DNA of 64,000 bases from Halogranum rubrum (GTDB lineage Archaea; Halobacteriota; Halobacteria; Halobacteriales; Haloferacaceae). Made by a program: the position numbers and the translations under genes. Positions 13,433-23,030 of this stretch are shown piece by piece. The stretch covers positions 963,012 through 1,027,011 of the forward strand of contig NZ_FOTC01000002.1 in the NCBI RefSeq assembly GCF_900114455.1, given 5' to 3'. The notes under the pieces are model-generated. The model had not been told where the DNA came from and ran no database searches. It worked only from the letters and a program-made list of their open reading frames with translations. The number at the start of each line of letters is the position of its first letter. Position 1 is the stretch's first letter.

Positions 13433-14506
13433 TCAACGCTGTGAGTCGCGGAGGATGAACGGCCCGATAGCGAGTGTCCGCTTCGCGATGGTCGCGATAC
13501 GTGCGATGTACGAGATGAGTAGTAAGAAGGGAAGAGACGTCACGGCGAACCCACTCGCGGTCATCCAGATGAGGTTCGGGACGCCGAGCGATTCGCCGGT
13601 TATCGCACTCCCGCCGAGATACGTCGTGATGAACCCGGCGACGATGAGCGCCGGCAACGAGAGATAGAGGATGTTCTGTGACAGGCTGATGAGTTCCCAC
13701 TCGAAGTACAACGTCTTGATGTGCTCGCGAGCGGGGCCGAACATCGAGAGCGCGCGCTTCAGGTCGTCGAAGATGGTGAGCGTCTCGTCGGAGATGTCGT
13801 CGTCGTACTCGTCGACGAGTCGCTCGACTTGGAAGATTTTCCACCCGTAGTTGTAGTCGAGTGCCGCGGCGAGGACGGTGTAGGACCCGAACTTCCGCCC
13901 TTCGAGTCGGTCCGCTGCGGTGTCGGCGTTGTCGATGAGACTGTCGGTGAATTCGGCGACTTCGCTCCGGAGCGTCTCGTTGTCGGCGTCGGCGACCGAG
14001 TCGCGGAGAGCCGTCGCGTAGTCTTTGCTCTCCAAGATGAGCGCACGGAGGAATTCCGAGGGGTCTGCCGGAACCGGTGTCCCGGTAATCTCTTTCGTGT
14101 ACTCGCGAAAGTCCATCGTGCTGCTCATCCGTTCGTGCTGGTCACCGAGCGGGCCGTTCTCCTGTGAGATGACTATCTGCGAGATGGTCAACACGAGTGT
14201 GACCCCGGTGATGATGGCTGCAATCATCGTCGAGAAGACGGTTTCGACCGTGTCGGCGGTCTGTGCATCGGTCAGGTAGTACTGATAGAAGAACGTCCCA
14301 CCGAAGACGAACACGCCGAAGATGAGAAGCGACATCAACCCGGCCACGAACAGACGGTTTCCGTCGAGGACGACCCACGTCTTGACGCGCGTCTCGCCGG
14401 CGCGCTTGCGCATCGTGTTCGCGGTACTGACTTCGTCGACGTCCGACGCGTCGACGTTCGGATTCTCCGCTCGCGTCTCGATGCTCTCTGCGGAGTCTTC
14501 ACTCAT
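13433..14506 (-). CDS. haloarchaeal membrane protein, paralogue of 15265-16278
   Basis: From ATG 14506, 357 aa. After an acidic N-terminal tail there are two membrane segments (about residues 45-70 and 80-107), a long cytoplasmic-looking helical region of about 150 residues, then two or three more membrane segments near the C-terminus (about 265-345). It aligns along its length with the protein encoded at 15265-16278: both have VETVFSxxxxAIIT, then LG-Q-RM-TMDF, MFGPxREx(I/V)KxLYxxW, and a closing TL-x-x-GP-x-IL. No characterised family is recognised. The topology (short helices flanking a large soluble domain) could suit a channel or a sensor, but that is inference. Confidence 0.8.
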   Translation of the reverse strand: MSEDSAESIETRAENPNVDASDVDEVSTANTMRKRAGETRVKTWVVLDGNRLFVAGLMSLLIFGVFVFGGTFFYQYYLTDAQTADTVETVFSTMIAAIITGVTLVLTISQIVISQENGPLGDQHERMSSTMDFREYTKEITGTPVPADPSEFLRALILESKDYATALRDSVADADNETLRSEVAEFTDSLIDNADTAADRLEGRKFGSYTVLAAALDYNYGWKIFQVERLVDEYDDDISDETLTIFDDLKRALSMFGPAREHIKTLYFEWELISLSQNILYLSLPALIVAGFITTYLGGSAITGESLGVPNLIWMTASGFAVTSLPFLLLISYIARIATIAKRTLAIGPFILRDSQR

Positions 14507-14781
14507 CGGCACACACCACTCTCGAAAGAGAGAGTCGTCGACCTCCAGCCCGCGTGTCTGTCGTTCATTCAGGAGACGACCAACGTACGTCGAGCACTTC
14601 AGAACACCGCTCTCACTCACCGCCCTTTCTCACTTCCCCTCTGCTCATCTCTCCTCAGCTCTGCTTATCTCTCCAATCCCCCCTCTCCTTAGCTCGATTC
14701 CTTCGTCGGTCCCATCGCTCACAGCCGAGTGACCGAGCAGCCGCCAGTGCAGTGATAAGGCTTCCACGAGCAGAGTAGCCA

Positions 14782-15264: not shown

Positions 15265-16278
15265 CTACGTGAGGATGAGCGGTCCGACGGTCAGCGTCTG
15301 TTTCGCGAGCGTCGCCAGTCGAAGCACGTACGACGTGAACACCAAGAACGGCGTGACCGAGATGGCGAACGCGGCGCTGACGACCCAAAGCATCGTCTCC
15401 AGACCGAACAGCGTCCCGGGGAACGTCGTCGGGTCGACGAAGACGACCATCCCGCCGGCGACGATGAGTGCCGGAACCGACGCGTAGAGAATCGCTCGCG
15501 AGAGTTTGACCAGCGCCCACTGGATGTACAGAACCTTGACGTACTCGCGGACGGGTCCGAACATCGCCACGGCTTCCAACATCTCTCTGAACGCCGTCCG
15601 CTCGTCTGTACTGAGTGCGTCTTCGTACACCTCGCCGAGTCGTCGGATGTCGTGTATCTTCTGGGCGTAGTTGAAGTCGAGTGCCGGCGAGACGACGGTG
15701 AACGTCCCGAAGTCGGCGTCTTCCAACTCCTCGTGTGCCGTCTCTGCGTTGCCGTGGAGGTCGCTGACGTACCGGTCTATCTCGGCCCGGAGTCGCTCGT
15801 CGTCGTTGTCGCCGACCGACTCTCGCAGCGTAGTCGCCCGGTCTTGACTCACGCGAAGGAGCTTTCTGAGGAACGTCGCCGGTTCGGAGGGCGTGGTCGT
15901 GCCGAACAGTTCGTCGGTGTTCTGATAGAAGTCCATCGTCGTGTCCATCCGCGTCCGCTGCGTCCCGAGCGACCCGATCTCTTGCGAGAGAACGAGTTGA
16001 TTGATGGAGACGACGAGCGTCGTACTCGTGATGATGGCACCGACGAGTCCCGAGAACACCGTCTCGACCATGTCGCTCGTCTTCATCATCGACACGAGCG
16101 ATACCGGCTTGAACGCGCCGAACACCACGAACGAGATGAAGACGCAGAGTGCGAGGACTCCCACGAGTACCCAGCGGTTGACGGAGAGCAGCACCCAAAA
16201 GAGGTACTCGTTCACGTCGGTCCGTTTCCGAAGCTTGTTCGGCGTCGACAGTTCTCGTTCGGTCTCGATGTCACTCAT
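15265..16278 (-). CDS. haloarchaeal membrane protein, paralogue of 13433-14506
   Basis: From ATG 16278, 337 aa. It has the same plan as the neighbouring paralogue: acidic tail, two membrane segments near residues 28-50 and 65-92, a large helical soluble region that opens with LGTQRTRMDTTMDFYQN, and two or three C-terminal membrane segments ending in LTVGPLILT. The start overlaps the last codons of the DUF4177-type gene by 8 bp, so those two are likely cotranscribed. The function is unknown. Confidence 0.8.
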   Translation of the reverse strand: MSDIETERELSTPNKLRKRTDVNEYLFWVLLSVNRWVLVGVLALCVFISFVVFGAFKPVSLVSMMKTSDMVETVFSGLVGAIITSTTLVVSINQLVLSQEIGSLGTQRTRMDTTMDFYQNTDELFGTTTPSEPATFLRKLLRVSQDRATTLRESVGDNDDERLRAEIDRYVSDLHGNAETAHEELEDADFGTFTVVSPALDFNYAQKIHDIRRLGEVYEDALSTDERTAFREMLEAVAMFGPVREYVKVLYIQWALVKLSRAILYASVPALIVAGGMVVFVDPTTFPGTLFGLETMLWVVSAAFAISVTPFLVFTSYVLRLATLAKQTLTVGPLILT

Positions 16279-16468
16279 CGAGTACCTGCCGCTTGAGGAG
16301 CAAGAACTTCGTCCCCCCTTTGTCGTAGTCGATGGGTCCAACGAGTTCCCACCCCTCGGCACCCAGTTCGTTGAGTTCGGCCGTCGGGTCGACGACTTCC
16401 CGTTTCGTGAGTCCCTTCGGTGGCTCCAGTGCTTTGTACTCCCACGTCGGTCGACTAGCAGTACACAT
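16271..16468 (-). CDS. DUF4177 family small protein
   Basis: A 65-aa protein with the DUF4177 pattern: an N-terminal strand WEYKALEPP, then a helix LNELGAEGWELVG and a final strand FLLLKRQ. It overlaps the start of the downstream membrane protein gene by 8 bp. DUF4177 proteins are short ferredoxin-like domains of unknown role, often cotranscribed with membrane proteins. Confidence 0.8.
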   Translation of the reverse strand: MCTASRPTWEYKALEPPKGLTKREVVDPTAELNELGAEGWELVGPIDYDKGGTKFLLLKRQVLDE

Positions 16469-16662
16469 ACCCAGTACGTCTCCCCGTCAGCCCTTAAGCG
16501 ATGTCGCCGCTGGAGGGGTTTCGAGGGCGTCGCTGTCTCCATTCTCGGCTACAGCGGTCGTTTGCATAGAAGAGAGAACGGTCTTGCGAACGTCGATATC
16601 TGGACAGTGAGTTCTTCACCCAACGGTTCGAAGCGTGACGCGTTTCCTAGTTAACGAACTCC

Positions 16663-19648: not shown

Positions 19649-20935
19649 TCACTGGTTCGTGCTCAGATGCGACACTGGCAACTCTGTGTCGTCACCGAGG
19701 TCCAAGCGCCGAGTCAGCACGTCGACAGCAATCGTCCGGGCGAGCGTTCGACTCGCCTCACCCGCCGTCGACTGGAGGTACCGTTCACCGGGGAGGGTGT
19801 CGGTCTGTTCGTCGACGAGTGAGCAAACGTCGTCGCGCGTCTCCGGCCCCGCCTCCGCAACAACCGCTTCGAGTCGTTCTAGTTCGAGAACGGTTCGGAC
19901 CGTGGCGACGAGGTATCGCTCGGCTGTCGCCGTCGGGTCGTCGACGGAGGGAACCGTCGAGAGGTAGCGTCTGGCGGCGGATTCCTCTACGCCGACGGTG
20001 TCTGTCACCCACTCGCGGACCGTCCGCACGTCTGCGTCGGGCGAGAGGTCGGTCCGTGCGTCGGCGCAGATTTTTGCCTCCTCGGCGGCGACGTCGTGGA
20101 ACACGTCGCCGACGACGACGGTGTCGGCACCGGCGTCGAGCATGGCCTGTGCGTGTTCGCGCGAGTCGAGTCCGCCGCCGTACCAGAGTCGCGACCAATC
20201 GAGACTCTCGGAGACGGCCGCGAGGATGTCCGCCGCCTCGTCGCCGCCGTAGGTGCCGGAGTATTCGAGGTAGACGAGTTCGCTCTCCAGGTGGCGTTCG
20301 GCGGCCATCGAGTGTTGTTTCGCCGCGCGCGCCGAGAGCAGGTCGTCTTCATCGACGTTGGCCTCGCGAGCGGCGGCGCTGTCGGGGTTCTGGATGATGT
20401 AGGCTTCGAACACTGCCTCCGAGAGGAGGAGTGAGGTGGCGACGTTCGAACAGGCGTCGAGTACCCGATTCGGCGTCCACCACGGGAGTTTCTCCGAGAG
20501 CATTCCGGGGGTGAGTTCCTCGCGGATGTACTCCGTGCCGACGCCGAGCGTCCCGACGAGTGACTCGGAGTCGCCGTTGAGCACTTCGGGGATTGCGATG
20601 AACGCAGCGGATTCGCGAGTGCGTTCGGTGACGTGTTTCGCCTCGCTCGGTTCGTGGAACGCGGGGACGGAGAGTGGTTCGAGGAGTGAGAACGTCTCTT
20701 CGGTGTTCGCGGCGGTGACGTCGCTCGACCCGCCGACGGAGACGGCGCTCGTGTGTCGGAGAAACAGCGGGTAGAGGAGGGGGAGTTTCTTCGCGTCTTC
20801 CGGGTCGAGTTTGGTGACGTGACTCCAGTCGGCGGGGACCGGGTTGGTGTCGAACGGACCGACCGTCCGAGCGACGATACCGAGTCCGTCCACCAGCCTG
20901 CCGAGTCTGCGTGGGAGCGCGTCGAAGGCAACCAT
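19649..20935 (-). CDS. GGGP-synthase-like protein with long C-terminal extension
   Basis: From ATG 20935, 428 aa. Residues about 35-285 match group I geranylgeranylglyceryl phosphate synthases, which make the first ether bond of archaeal lipids. WSHVTKLDP is at 37-45, then PAFHEPSE, IPEVLNGDSES, the NPDSAAAR block (183-190), YLEYSGTYG (222-230) and the phosphate-binding YGGGLDSRE (252-260) with VVVGD (273-277). Canonical enzymes are about 210-250 aa. This one has an insert near 140-175 and an extra helical acidic domain of about 140 residues (285-428). Active-site motifs look intact. It is divergent from an unknown gene 124 bp away. A canonical paralogue would be expected elsewhere in the genome. 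Confidence 0.8.
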   Translation of the reverse strand: MVAFDALPRRLGRLVDGLGIVARTVGPFDTNPVPADWSHVTKLDPEDAKKLPLLYPLFLRHTSAVSVGGSSDVTAANTEETFSLLEPLSVPAFHEPSEAKHVTERTRESAAFIAIPEVLNGDSESLVGTLGVGTEYIREELTPGMLSEKLPWWTPNRVLDACSNVATSLLLSEAVFEAYIIQNPDSAAAREANVDEDDLLSARAAKQHSMAAERHLESELVYLEYSGTYGGDEAADILAAVSESLDWSRLWYGGGLDSREHAQAMLDAGADTVVVGDVFHDVAAEEAKICADARTDLSPDADVRTVREWVTDTVGVEESAARRYLSTVPSVDDPTATAERYLVATVRTVLELERLEAVVAEAGPETRDDVCSLVDEQTDTLPGERYLQSTAGEASRTLARTIAVDVLTRRLDLGDDTELPVSHLSTNQ

Positions 20936-21059
20936 CACTCGAACTGCGACGAGCAGTGAGTAAATAGCTCGCGAAACGACTCCGAGTCGGCGGCGACTCC
21001 CCGAACCGACCGCCGCGTTCACAACCCCTATTAGTAGCTGGTCGTGTACCACACAAGCA

Positions 21060-22184
21060 ATGCAGGATGTAGCCGTCACGCCGTGGTCACGAATCCCACC
21101 CATCGCCCGGGCGTTCCTCCGCTACGTCAGTCGGTCTCCCCACCCCAGCGTGATTCCCGTCCTCGTGCTTCGCTCCGAAGTCGACGACGACATCGACGCG
21201 ATGACGGGGCGTATGTTTCGCGAGGTGGAACTCGAACTCGACTCGGCGCTCGCTGCGGGCGAAGTAGAGACGGTCGACGTCGGAGACGCAGTCCGGTTCG
21301 ACTACGACACGCGACTCGTCCTCCCCGCACTCTTGACGCTCGGTCGACTCTGTGTCCTCGCCAACGACGTCCCGGTCGTCAGGCACGTCCGCGACGTCGA
21401 CGAGGAACTGGCTCGCGAGAGTCGCACGACGACGTACAACATCGTCCAGGCGCTCGTCGACGGCGACATGCGCGACGCCATCAACGACGAGGAGTACGAA
21501 GACTTCGTGACGAACGCGCGCCCGAAGTCCCGCGTCGCCGAGCGTGCACAGGCCCGATTGGCCGAGAACGTCCAACGGTGGTTCGGGAAGGCAGAGACGC
21601 CCGCGGCCGTGCGTGAACACTACGAACACGCCGTCGGTCTCTCTGAGGGCCACCAAGACGACGACGAGGCGTTCCGTGACTTACTCGACCGCTATCACGC
21701 GACCGAGGGAACCGACCGGGCCGACGTTGCCGAGGAGATACGGGAGTCGTACAAGTTCGCGGAGCACGACGAACCACTCGGTCTGTTCGACGCCGATAGC
21801 TCGTTGCCGTACTTCCTGACGCAGTACCTCCGAGTCGGAATCCTCTACGAAGATATGCTGAACATGTACGAAGCCGACTTGGATATCGACCTCGGTGACG
21901 ACTTCAAACGCGCCATCGTCCTCATGGTCATCGCCGCACAGGTGGGACTCGACGACACGGACGACTACCCCGAAGACCGTCGGACGCAGTTGACGCCGGT
22001 GACTGCCGAGTTGAACCTCGCCGACGACCGGGAGACGGGTGTCGAGAACCTCCGTGAAGTGGTCGTCGACTATCTCGACCGGGCCGAAGCGTGCTCGCCG
22101 GACCACCTGACGAGTATGGCAATCGAGTTCATCCGCCAGCAGTCACTCGACAGACTCGCGGCGCTGCCGACGAGCGACCAGTGA
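21060..22184 (+). CDS. hypothetical protein with DDxxD...RR motif
   Basis: A 374-aa mostly helical acidic protein with no membrane segment. I do not recognise a family. Near residues 298-308 the sequence DDTDDYPEDRR follows a hydrophobic helix; this spacing (DDxxD then four residues then RR) resembles the first Asp-rich motif of polyprenyl synthases or the NxxRD-xxED-xRR segment of phytoene/squalene synthases. A DDDID lies at 42-46. Acidic haloarchaeal proteins produce such motifs by chance, so this is only a hint. The divergent arrangement with a GGGP-synthase-like gene makes a lipid link worth testing. Confidence 0.75.
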   Translation: MQDVAVTPWSRIPPIARAFLRYVSRSPHPSVIPVLVLRSEVDDDIDAMTGRMFREVELELDSALAAGEVETVDVGDAVRFDYDTRLVLPALLTLGRLCVLANDVPVVRHVRDVDEELARESRTTTYNIVQALVDGDMRDAINDEEYEDFVTNARPKSRVAERAQARLAENVQRWFGKAETPAAVREHYEHAVGLSEGHQDDDEAFRDLLDRYHATEGTDRADVAEEIRESYKFAEHDEPLGLFDADSSLPYFLTQYLRVGILYEDMLNMYEADLDIDLGDDFKRAIVLMVIAAQVGLDDTDDYPEDRRTQLTPVTAELNLADDRETGVENLREVVVDYLDRAEACSPDHLTSMAIEFIRQQSLDRLAALPTSDQ

Positions 22185-22418
22185 ACACGAGACTCGGTTC
22201 GGAGACACTGCCGTGTCTCCCTCCTCGGCAGCGGCGTCCGTCTGTCGAGACGACGAAGCCGTTCCAGAAGTCACAGATGGGGTACACCGTGCGCTATCTT
22301 CCTAATCAAAAAGAATATTACCGGTTCACCGTATCTTGTTATCAGTTGATGACTCCCGGTGAGGCGGAGCGTCATGCTGTAAGACCACGAACAGCCCTTG
22401 GCTCGGGAGTGATTGTCG

Positions 22419-23030
22419 ATGTATAACCTCGACCCAGCGTTCGACTACGAAGTCGCCCCAGGAACGAACATCCTCGTCACTGGCGCTCCCCTGACAGGGA
22501 AACGTGCACTCGCGCTCGACGTCCTCGCCGAGGGAACACGCAAGGGTGACAGTTCGATCATCGTCACGACGAAAGACAGCGGAAAACGCATCCTCAACGA
22601 CTACGCGACGCGGACGGCGTACGAGGGCCGTCCGGTCGCCGTCGTCGACTGTGTCACTCGCCAACAGGGGGTCAACGACCTCCGAGACGACGACCGAGTC
22701 AAGTACACCTCGTCGCCGGTCGACATGACCGGCATCGGAATCAAGCTCTCGGAGTTCCTCCAAGCGTTCTACCAAGAACAGGGTATCGAGCGAAACCGGA
22801 TCATGGTCCACTCGCTGTCGACACTCCTGATGTACTCGGACCTCCAGACCGTGTTTCGGTTCCTCCACGTCTTCACCGGCCGCATCCAGAGCGTCGGCGG
22901 ACTGGGTCTGTTCTGTATCGACTCGACCGCACACGACGACCGGACAATGAACACCCTCAAACAGCTGTTCGACGGTATCATCACGACGTACGAGGACGAG
23001 GAGTCGTCGATTCGACTCGCCAGCGACTGA
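22419..23030 (+). CDS. KaiC/RecA-like ATPase of haloarchaeal type
   Basis: A 203-aa single-domain P-loop protein like the HTR-like/RadA-like proteins of haloarchaea. The Walker A region is GAPLTGKR at residues 22-29, with Arg where Ser/Thr is usual, and the Walker B-like strand is in IMVHSLSTLLMYSD. ATG 22419 was chosen; a TTG at 22413 is in frame two codons upstream, and a GGGAG at 22404-22408 could serve as ribosome-binding site. It is probably cytoplasmic and signalling-related; the function is unproven. Confidence 0.8.
   Translation: MYNLDPAFDYEVAPGTNILVTGAPLTGKRALALDVLAEGTRKGDSSIIVTTKDSGKRILNDYATRTAYEGRPVAVVDCVTRQQGVNDLRDDDRVKYTSSPVDMTGIGIKLSEFLQAFYQEQGIERNRIMVHSLSTLLMYSDLQTVFRFLHVFTGRIQSVGGLGLFCIDSTAHDDRTMNTLKQLFDGIITTYEDEESSIRLASD

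Follow-up and report, generated by a model that had tools for sequence, protein, structure and literature searches.

Geranylgeranylglyceryl phosphate (GGGP) synthase carries out the first committed step of archaeal lipid synthesis, determines its stereochemistry and fills the sn-3 position. The protein analysed here, a long form from Halogranum rubrum, stands close to several described enzymes. The closest solved structure is the A. fulgidus GGGP synthase (2f6u, 8ruw), which has in common with it the residues Y124, Y165 and E167 and the Asp of the KLDP motif; however, the A. fulgidus enzyme lacks the N-terminal extension, the insert and the C-terminal domain, and its Trp99 is not kept in the long form. 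The canonical haloarchaeal enzyme (IaH1, TIGR04147) has the same fold, catalytic residues and presumed reaction, but is 240 aa long and carries the Trp limiter, whereas the long form has 428 aa and lacks it. The PcrB heptaprenylglyceryl phosphate synthases belong to the same family but to a different clade. In the account of Peterhoff et al. (2014) given by a review (PMC9385802), a second enzyme, IaH2, occurs in haloarchaea with C20-C25 lipids and has its Trp limiter replaced by Leu, and the short sister clade of the long form is named IaH2 here after that description. IaH2 resembles the long form as a group I enzyme and second haloarchaeal paralogue that lacks the Trp limiter, has part of the insert and forms its sister clade; in contrast, it is about 256 aa long, is not extended at the N-terminus, and has neither the C-terminal domain nor, at the loci examined, a neighbouring partner gene.

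A further parallel comes from moenomycin synthesis, where MoeO5, a GGGP synthase-like barrel, and MoeN5, a transferase of the prenyl-synthase fold, act in one pathway; both are among the fold matches of the long form and its partner. Theirs is a bacterial antibiotic pathway, and the likeness to the haloarchaeal pair is a resemblance only.

Architecture of the long gene

The analysed window is a 64,000 nt stretch of the Halogranum rubrum genome (contig NZ_FOTC01000002.1), in which the long gene occupies 19649..20935 on the minus strand, with its stop codon at 19649-19651. On the same strand, the N-terminal extension (residues 1-34; 20834..20935) has a helix at residues 6-25 in the model and ends, in the alignment, in a conserved DTNPVP. 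The GGGP synthase TIM barrel (residues 35-285; 20081..20833) contains the catalytic Y179, Y222 and E224, together with D44 (of KLDP), S226 and G227, and is interrupted relative to the canonical enzyme by an aligned insert (residues 139-162; 20450..20521) that the model places between helices 123-149 and 156-173. The C-terminal helical domain (residues 286-428; 19652..20080) comprises 143 residues with the core pattern AA.YLSTIPSV.DP...A..YL.ATV. The initial annotation, made from the sequence alone, had described a protein of about twice the usual length with about 140 extra C-terminal residues, and both statements agree with these boundaries (the canonical copy of the genome has 240 aa, the long form 428 aa). 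Its placing of an insert near residues 140-175 is approximately correct, the insert being about 24 residues long and much of it common to IaH2; the conserved 34-residue N-terminal extension and the divergent partner gene were absent from that annotation.

The ATG at 20935 is taken as the start because a TATA-like TATTTA (20961..20966, minus strand; read by eye) is centred 28 bp upstream and because homologues begin at the same place; the start codon of a longer, 484-aa frame was rejected, as it lies far upstream of where homologues begin. The partner gene starts divergently 124 bp away, and its own TATA-like box, TATTAGTA (21029..21036, plus strand), is likewise read by eye and centred about 28 bp before its ATG. 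The position of these boxes suggests leaderless starts for both genes. A tRNA-Arg gene lies downstream of the long gene. The closest named relative, Halogranum amylolyticum, has the same flanking genes and a long form with 81% identity. Moreover, a length of 417-447 aa is kept across the curated long-form set, which excludes chance read-through as the origin of the extra residues.

Catalytic core and clade

The core of the protein is recognised as a GGGP synthase by Pfam (PF01884, residues 36-283, E-value 9.5e-27; score 94.4 bits, cut-off 23.9), while it scores below the cut-offs of the canonical haloarchaeal model (TIGR04147, 99.6 bits against 300) and of PcrB (NF003197, 85.8 bits against 260). 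It contains the motifs KLDP, EPS, NPDSA, YLEYSGTYGG, YGGGLDSRE and VVGD, which comprise all those listed initially, with EPS in addition. The decisive A. fulgidus residues named by the review (PMC9385802), Y124, Y165 and E167, correspond to Y179, Y222 and E224, and K42, D44, Y179, Y222, E224, S226, G227 and the YGGG stretch are invariant across 60 aligned sequences. The phosphate loop reads VVGD in Halogranum rubrum and most long forms, and VVGN in some. Between the two Halogranum species, the 251 codons of the core differ by 22 amino-acid changes against 54 silent ones. The predicted structure (pLDDT 94.3) is a modified TIM barrel, and the best fold matches of the core model are to the A. fulgidus enzyme (8ruw, E 5.4e-15; TM about 0.81 by target length), with PcrB enzymes next.

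In a tree of the common core, for which the bootstrap converged incompletely, the long form (100/99) and IaH2 (100/96) are separate, supported clades that group together (100/99) against the canonical enzymes, the canonical archaeal and bacterial sequences both lying outside. Judged by its sequence, the long form is most likely a catalytically competent group I GGGP synthase that represents a third haloarchaeal clade, sister to IaH2. It occurs in 29 of the 195 sampled genomes of the order, and close relatives are found in named genomes of Halogranum, Halorussus, Halosimplex, Halovenus, Halorhabdus, Halapricum, Salinibaculum, Halolamina, Halomarina and Halorubellus. In databases, long forms have been entered as heptaprenylglyceryl phosphate synthase and the partner as a hypothetical protein, names that the present assignments correct.

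The Halogranum rubrum assembly contains two PF01884 genes, the canonical 240 aa copy (2.8e-59) and the long form (1.5e-26 in the genome search), so that the gene is a paralogue, as had been proposed. In contrast, the long form is the sole recognisable GGGP synthase in six genomes (G003, G075, G109, G119, G143 and G182), all at least 98% complete, whose remaining PF01884 matches are fragments below the cut-off. The case of a sole and functionally ordinary GGGP synthase, which the initial annotation had set against its own reading, thus does not apply to Halogranum rubrum and applies in part to its relatives. The organisms of these six genomes must make archaeol. These genomes bear directly on the suggestion, also made initially, that the protein is a regulatory or non-catalytic paralogue: the added domain and the change from VVGN to VVGD in many members would suit such a role, but the catalytic residues are invariant, VVGN is present in at least four of the six long-form-only genomes, and all six have to make archaeol with no other recognisable enzyme. 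Because of these invariant residues and the genomes in which it stands alone, the long form is neither dead nor merely regulatory, and a regulatory role is highly improbable. Its enzymatic activity would be expected from the catalytic residues, the long-form-only genomes and published lipids.

Other variations in GGGP synthase content were observed. In four complete genomes of one family (G087, G134, G169 and G140; loci L143-L146), the sole GGGP synthase found is of the short IaH2 type, and the canonical enzyme seems to have been lost there too. Six genomes of one genus (G194, G190, G108, G152, G166 and G171; family f17, genus g38) have 5-11 PF01884 matches each, and plasmids of Haladaptatus carry PF01884 genes.

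The C-terminal domain

The added C-terminal domain noted initially is helical in the model, confidently so across residues 303-410, and has no solved counterpart. It has no match in Pfam or among PDB sequences, and none of the best 50 PDB fold matches of the long-form model covers it; a known fold was rejected on these sequence and fold comparisons. Confident copies occur only in long-form genes (12 genomes), with two marginal matches elsewhere (E 0.02). The domain varies rapidly around its conserved core pattern: its mean column identity is 34%, and 68 of its 143 codons differ in amino acid between the two Halogranum species, compared to 22 of 251 in the core. The likeliest role of this clade-specific domain is in docking or assembly, between copies of the long form or between it and the neighbouring protein.

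A divergent partner with a predicted prenyl-synthase-like fold

The partner gene (21060..22184, plus strand) encodes a 374 aa protein of no known family with a predicted isoprenoid-synthase-like fold. Its AlphaFold2 model is confident (pLDDT 93.4, pTM 0.91), and its best 50 PDB fold matches all belong to the trans-isoprenyl diphosphate synthases or their relatives, including MoeN5, mostly with probabilities of 0.9-1.0; the Foldseek E-values all exceed 1e-3 (best 2.8e-3), with TM scores of about 0.45-0.55 for the best. Two Asp-rich motifs with invariant columns lie at the ends of helices. Motif 1, DGDMRDAIND (residues 134-143; 21459..21488, plus strand), ends helix 115-142 and follows the pattern DGDMRDAxND, in which a GDxxD preceded directly by an Asp stands instead of DDxxD, with no RRG after it. 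Motif 2, LDDTDDYPEDRRTQLTP (residues 297-313; 21948..21998, plus strand), follows the pattern LDDxDDxxxD at the end of the late helix 280-306. The Asp-rich motifs of prenyl synthases sit at the ends of two such helices. Overall, 58 columns are invariant across 35 partner sequences, and these cluster in the Asp-rich motifs and helix 250-266.

The partner therefore resembles the trans-isoprenyl diphosphate synthases (PF00348) in its predicted all-helical fold and its two Asp-rich motifs at helix ends, but differs from them in its larger size, its altered motif 1, its missing RRG and its lack of detectable sequence similarity. In particular, there was no match in Pfam (including PF00348), NCBIfam or PDB sequences, and a profile-profile comparison with haloarchaeal prenyl synthases (hhalign) gave a probability of 0.2% and no relationship; sequence homology to known prenyl synthases was thus rejected, and the fold and motifs carry the assignment. 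The partner is probably a divergent, metal-dependent enzyme of trans-isoprenyl-diphosphate-synthase-like fold, as its predicted structure suggests, and may be a new branch of that fold. It is additional to the ordinary prenyl synthases, because PF00348 is found in all sampled genomes but one, which is incomplete; a role as their substitute was rejected on the same count. The departure of motif 1 from DDxxD and the missing RRG could also indicate a degenerate prenyl synthase that serves only as a scaffold or membrane anchor, with the C-terminal domain of the long enzyme as its docking site. That is rather unlikely, since the invariant columns lie in the Asp-rich motifs and helix 250-266, as expected for an active site, and since the partner survives in genomes without the long enzyme.

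Linkage of the long form and its partner

Every one of the 29 sampled long-form genomes also has the partner, as do 12 of the 166 genomes that lack the long form (Fisher p 2e-25, a value that ignores shared ancestry; one weak match, in G134, is left out). In most of the named long-form loci the two genes adjoin, in several arrangements: divergent in Halogranum, Halorussus and Halolamina; codirectional with the partner upstream in Halovenus, Salinibaculum, Halorhabdus and Halapricum; and convergent with the partner downstream in Halosimplex. In Halococcoides they lie far apart. At the loci examined, the partner is near no IaH2 gene. The five partner-only genomes in the sample branch inside those with both genes, consistent with a single loss of the long gene. 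Further, the pair is carried on a 437 kb plasmid of Salinigranum marinum (NZ_CP100462.1), and the two genes may therefore move as a unit. On this plasmid, glycosyltransferase and epimerase genes flank the pair.

These patterns bear on the reading that the long form is a redundant isozyme for other conditions, with an extra domain that stabilises it and an unrelated neighbour for a partner. Such an isozyme would have the intact, strongly conserved catalytic core that is observed, next to the canonical copy of Halogranum rubrum, but it would leave unexplained why the partner accompanies the long form in every one of its genomes, across several arrangements and also on a plasmid, and why the extra domain is kept throughout the clade despite its fast variation; we consider it doubtful.

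A gene for a geranylgeranyl-reductase-family flavoprotein often adjoins the partner, mostly divergently. The cut-off of NF041385 (haloarchaeal digeranylgeranylglycerophospholipid reductase) is exceeded in Salinibaculum (L068) and in G162, a partner-only genome; the remaining partner-only loci have genes that fall into the same cluster. The cut-off of TIGR02032 is exceeded in Halovenus and Halorhabdus utahensis loci. Within the Halogranum rubrum window, no reductase gene was found beside the pair. A DUF7504 / KaiC-like ATPase gene (22413-23030, plus strand) comes after the partner, as it does in the Halogranum amylolyticum and Halorussus loci, and is possibly co-transcribed with it.

A proposed route to the sn-3 chain

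We propose, with a probability of about 0.72, that the locus encodes a competent GGGP synthase of a third clade and a divergent partner of prenyl-synthase fold that would act in the same lipid pathway. The TIM barrel of the long form would attach the chain of a prenyl diphosphate to the sn-3 hydroxyl of glycerol-1-phosphate; this chain would normally be C20, although C25 would be tolerated to some extent. The C-terminal domain would assemble the long form with itself or with the partner, which, through its two Asp-rich and probably metal-binding motifs, would supply or hand over the prenyl diphosphate. In Halogranum rubrum, this pair would operate alongside the canonical enzyme; for Halorhabdus and Halococcoides, no other route was found. 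A stronger version, in which the two proteins form one enzyme docked via the C-terminal domain and pass a prenyl diphosphate of chosen length onto glycerol-1-phosphate, thereby setting the sn-3 chain to C20 or C25, is tentative and somewhat improbable.

Published lipids make Halorhabdus and Halococcoides natural test cases. Strong but indirect evidence identifies two of the long-form-only genomes, each a single contig, as Halorhabdus utahensis AX-2 (G075) and Halococcoides cellulosivorans HArcel1 (G003; genome PMC10267330). The former has C20 diphytanyl ether phospholipids (PMC3035240). Of the core lipids of HArcel1, C20-C20 archaeol makes up 81%, and extended archaeol in which C25 occupies sn-3 makes up 13% (PMC6423904 Table 2, columns read from tabs; the values for HArcel1 and for AArc-Sl each sum to about 99, in support of this column reading). 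Most other C25 strains in that study carry C25 at sn-2; Halalkaliarchaeum AArc-Sl has 7% with C25 at sn-3, and AArcht-Sl has 49% of an sn-3-C25 monoether that the study itself regards as an artefact caused by unsaturated lipids (PMC6423904). The sn-3 C25 of AArc-Sl means that the link between such lipids and the long form may not be specific.

These data can be read as the work of a chain-length specialist adapted to C25 (geranylfarnesyl) diphosphate, whose sn-3-C25 lipids would complement the C20 product of the canonical enzyme. The long forms examined lack the Trp by which the A. fulgidus enzyme is restricted to C20, with no Trp at either candidate limiter position, and C25 is at sn-3 in a long-form-only strain while most C25 strains have it at sn-2 (PMC6423904). 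However, HArcel1 is 81% C20, C20 lipids are likewise reported for Halorhabdus utahensis, which also has only the long form, and the limiter position is ambiguous, as the A. fulgidus Trp aligns with G133 or Y136 depending on the gap. Moreover, the Halogranum rubrum genome has only two conventional prenyl synthases, and relatives that lack the long form have at least as many. A C25 specialist is accordingly unlikely. The preferred reading, based on the long-form-only genomes and their published lipids, is that the long form makes C20 and can probably also place C25. For the non-standard ether lipid precursor suggested by the initial annotation, the 13% of HArcel1 gives modest indirect support; an exotic lipid is nevertheless not the default product, as HArcel1 is mostly C20 and the phospholipid core of Halorhabdus utahensis is C20. 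The long-form clade takes the place of the canonical enzyme in several genera and has a domain and a linked partner of its own, and it provides a testable handle on sn-3 chain-length choice in haloarchaea.

Additional observations

A UbiA survey of ten genomes gave no support for the partner as a substitute for the UbiA-type second-chain enzyme, and no gene in these ten could be singled out as the second-chain (DGGGP) synthase. In Halococcoides (G003; L226, L239 and L218), PF01040 finds three UbiA-type genes only: the best-scoring one (probably CtaB), a MenA over its cut-off and a LyeJ-like one. In some genomes, a UbiA-like part and a lycopene-cyclase domain (TIGR03462) form a single protein (L246:732-1937, L249:638-1858 and L253:564-1793), which is apparently split in Halogranum rubrum (G000:C6:975974-977177). 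The UbiA-like part is matched in 156 of the 195 genomes; the protein with both parts had been suspected as the second-chain enzyme, but is missing from many ordinary haloarchaea.

Elsewhere in the window, two neighbouring membrane-protein-like genes on the minus strand (13433-14620 and 15265-16542), which have no Pfam family, are 44% identical and constitute a local duplication.
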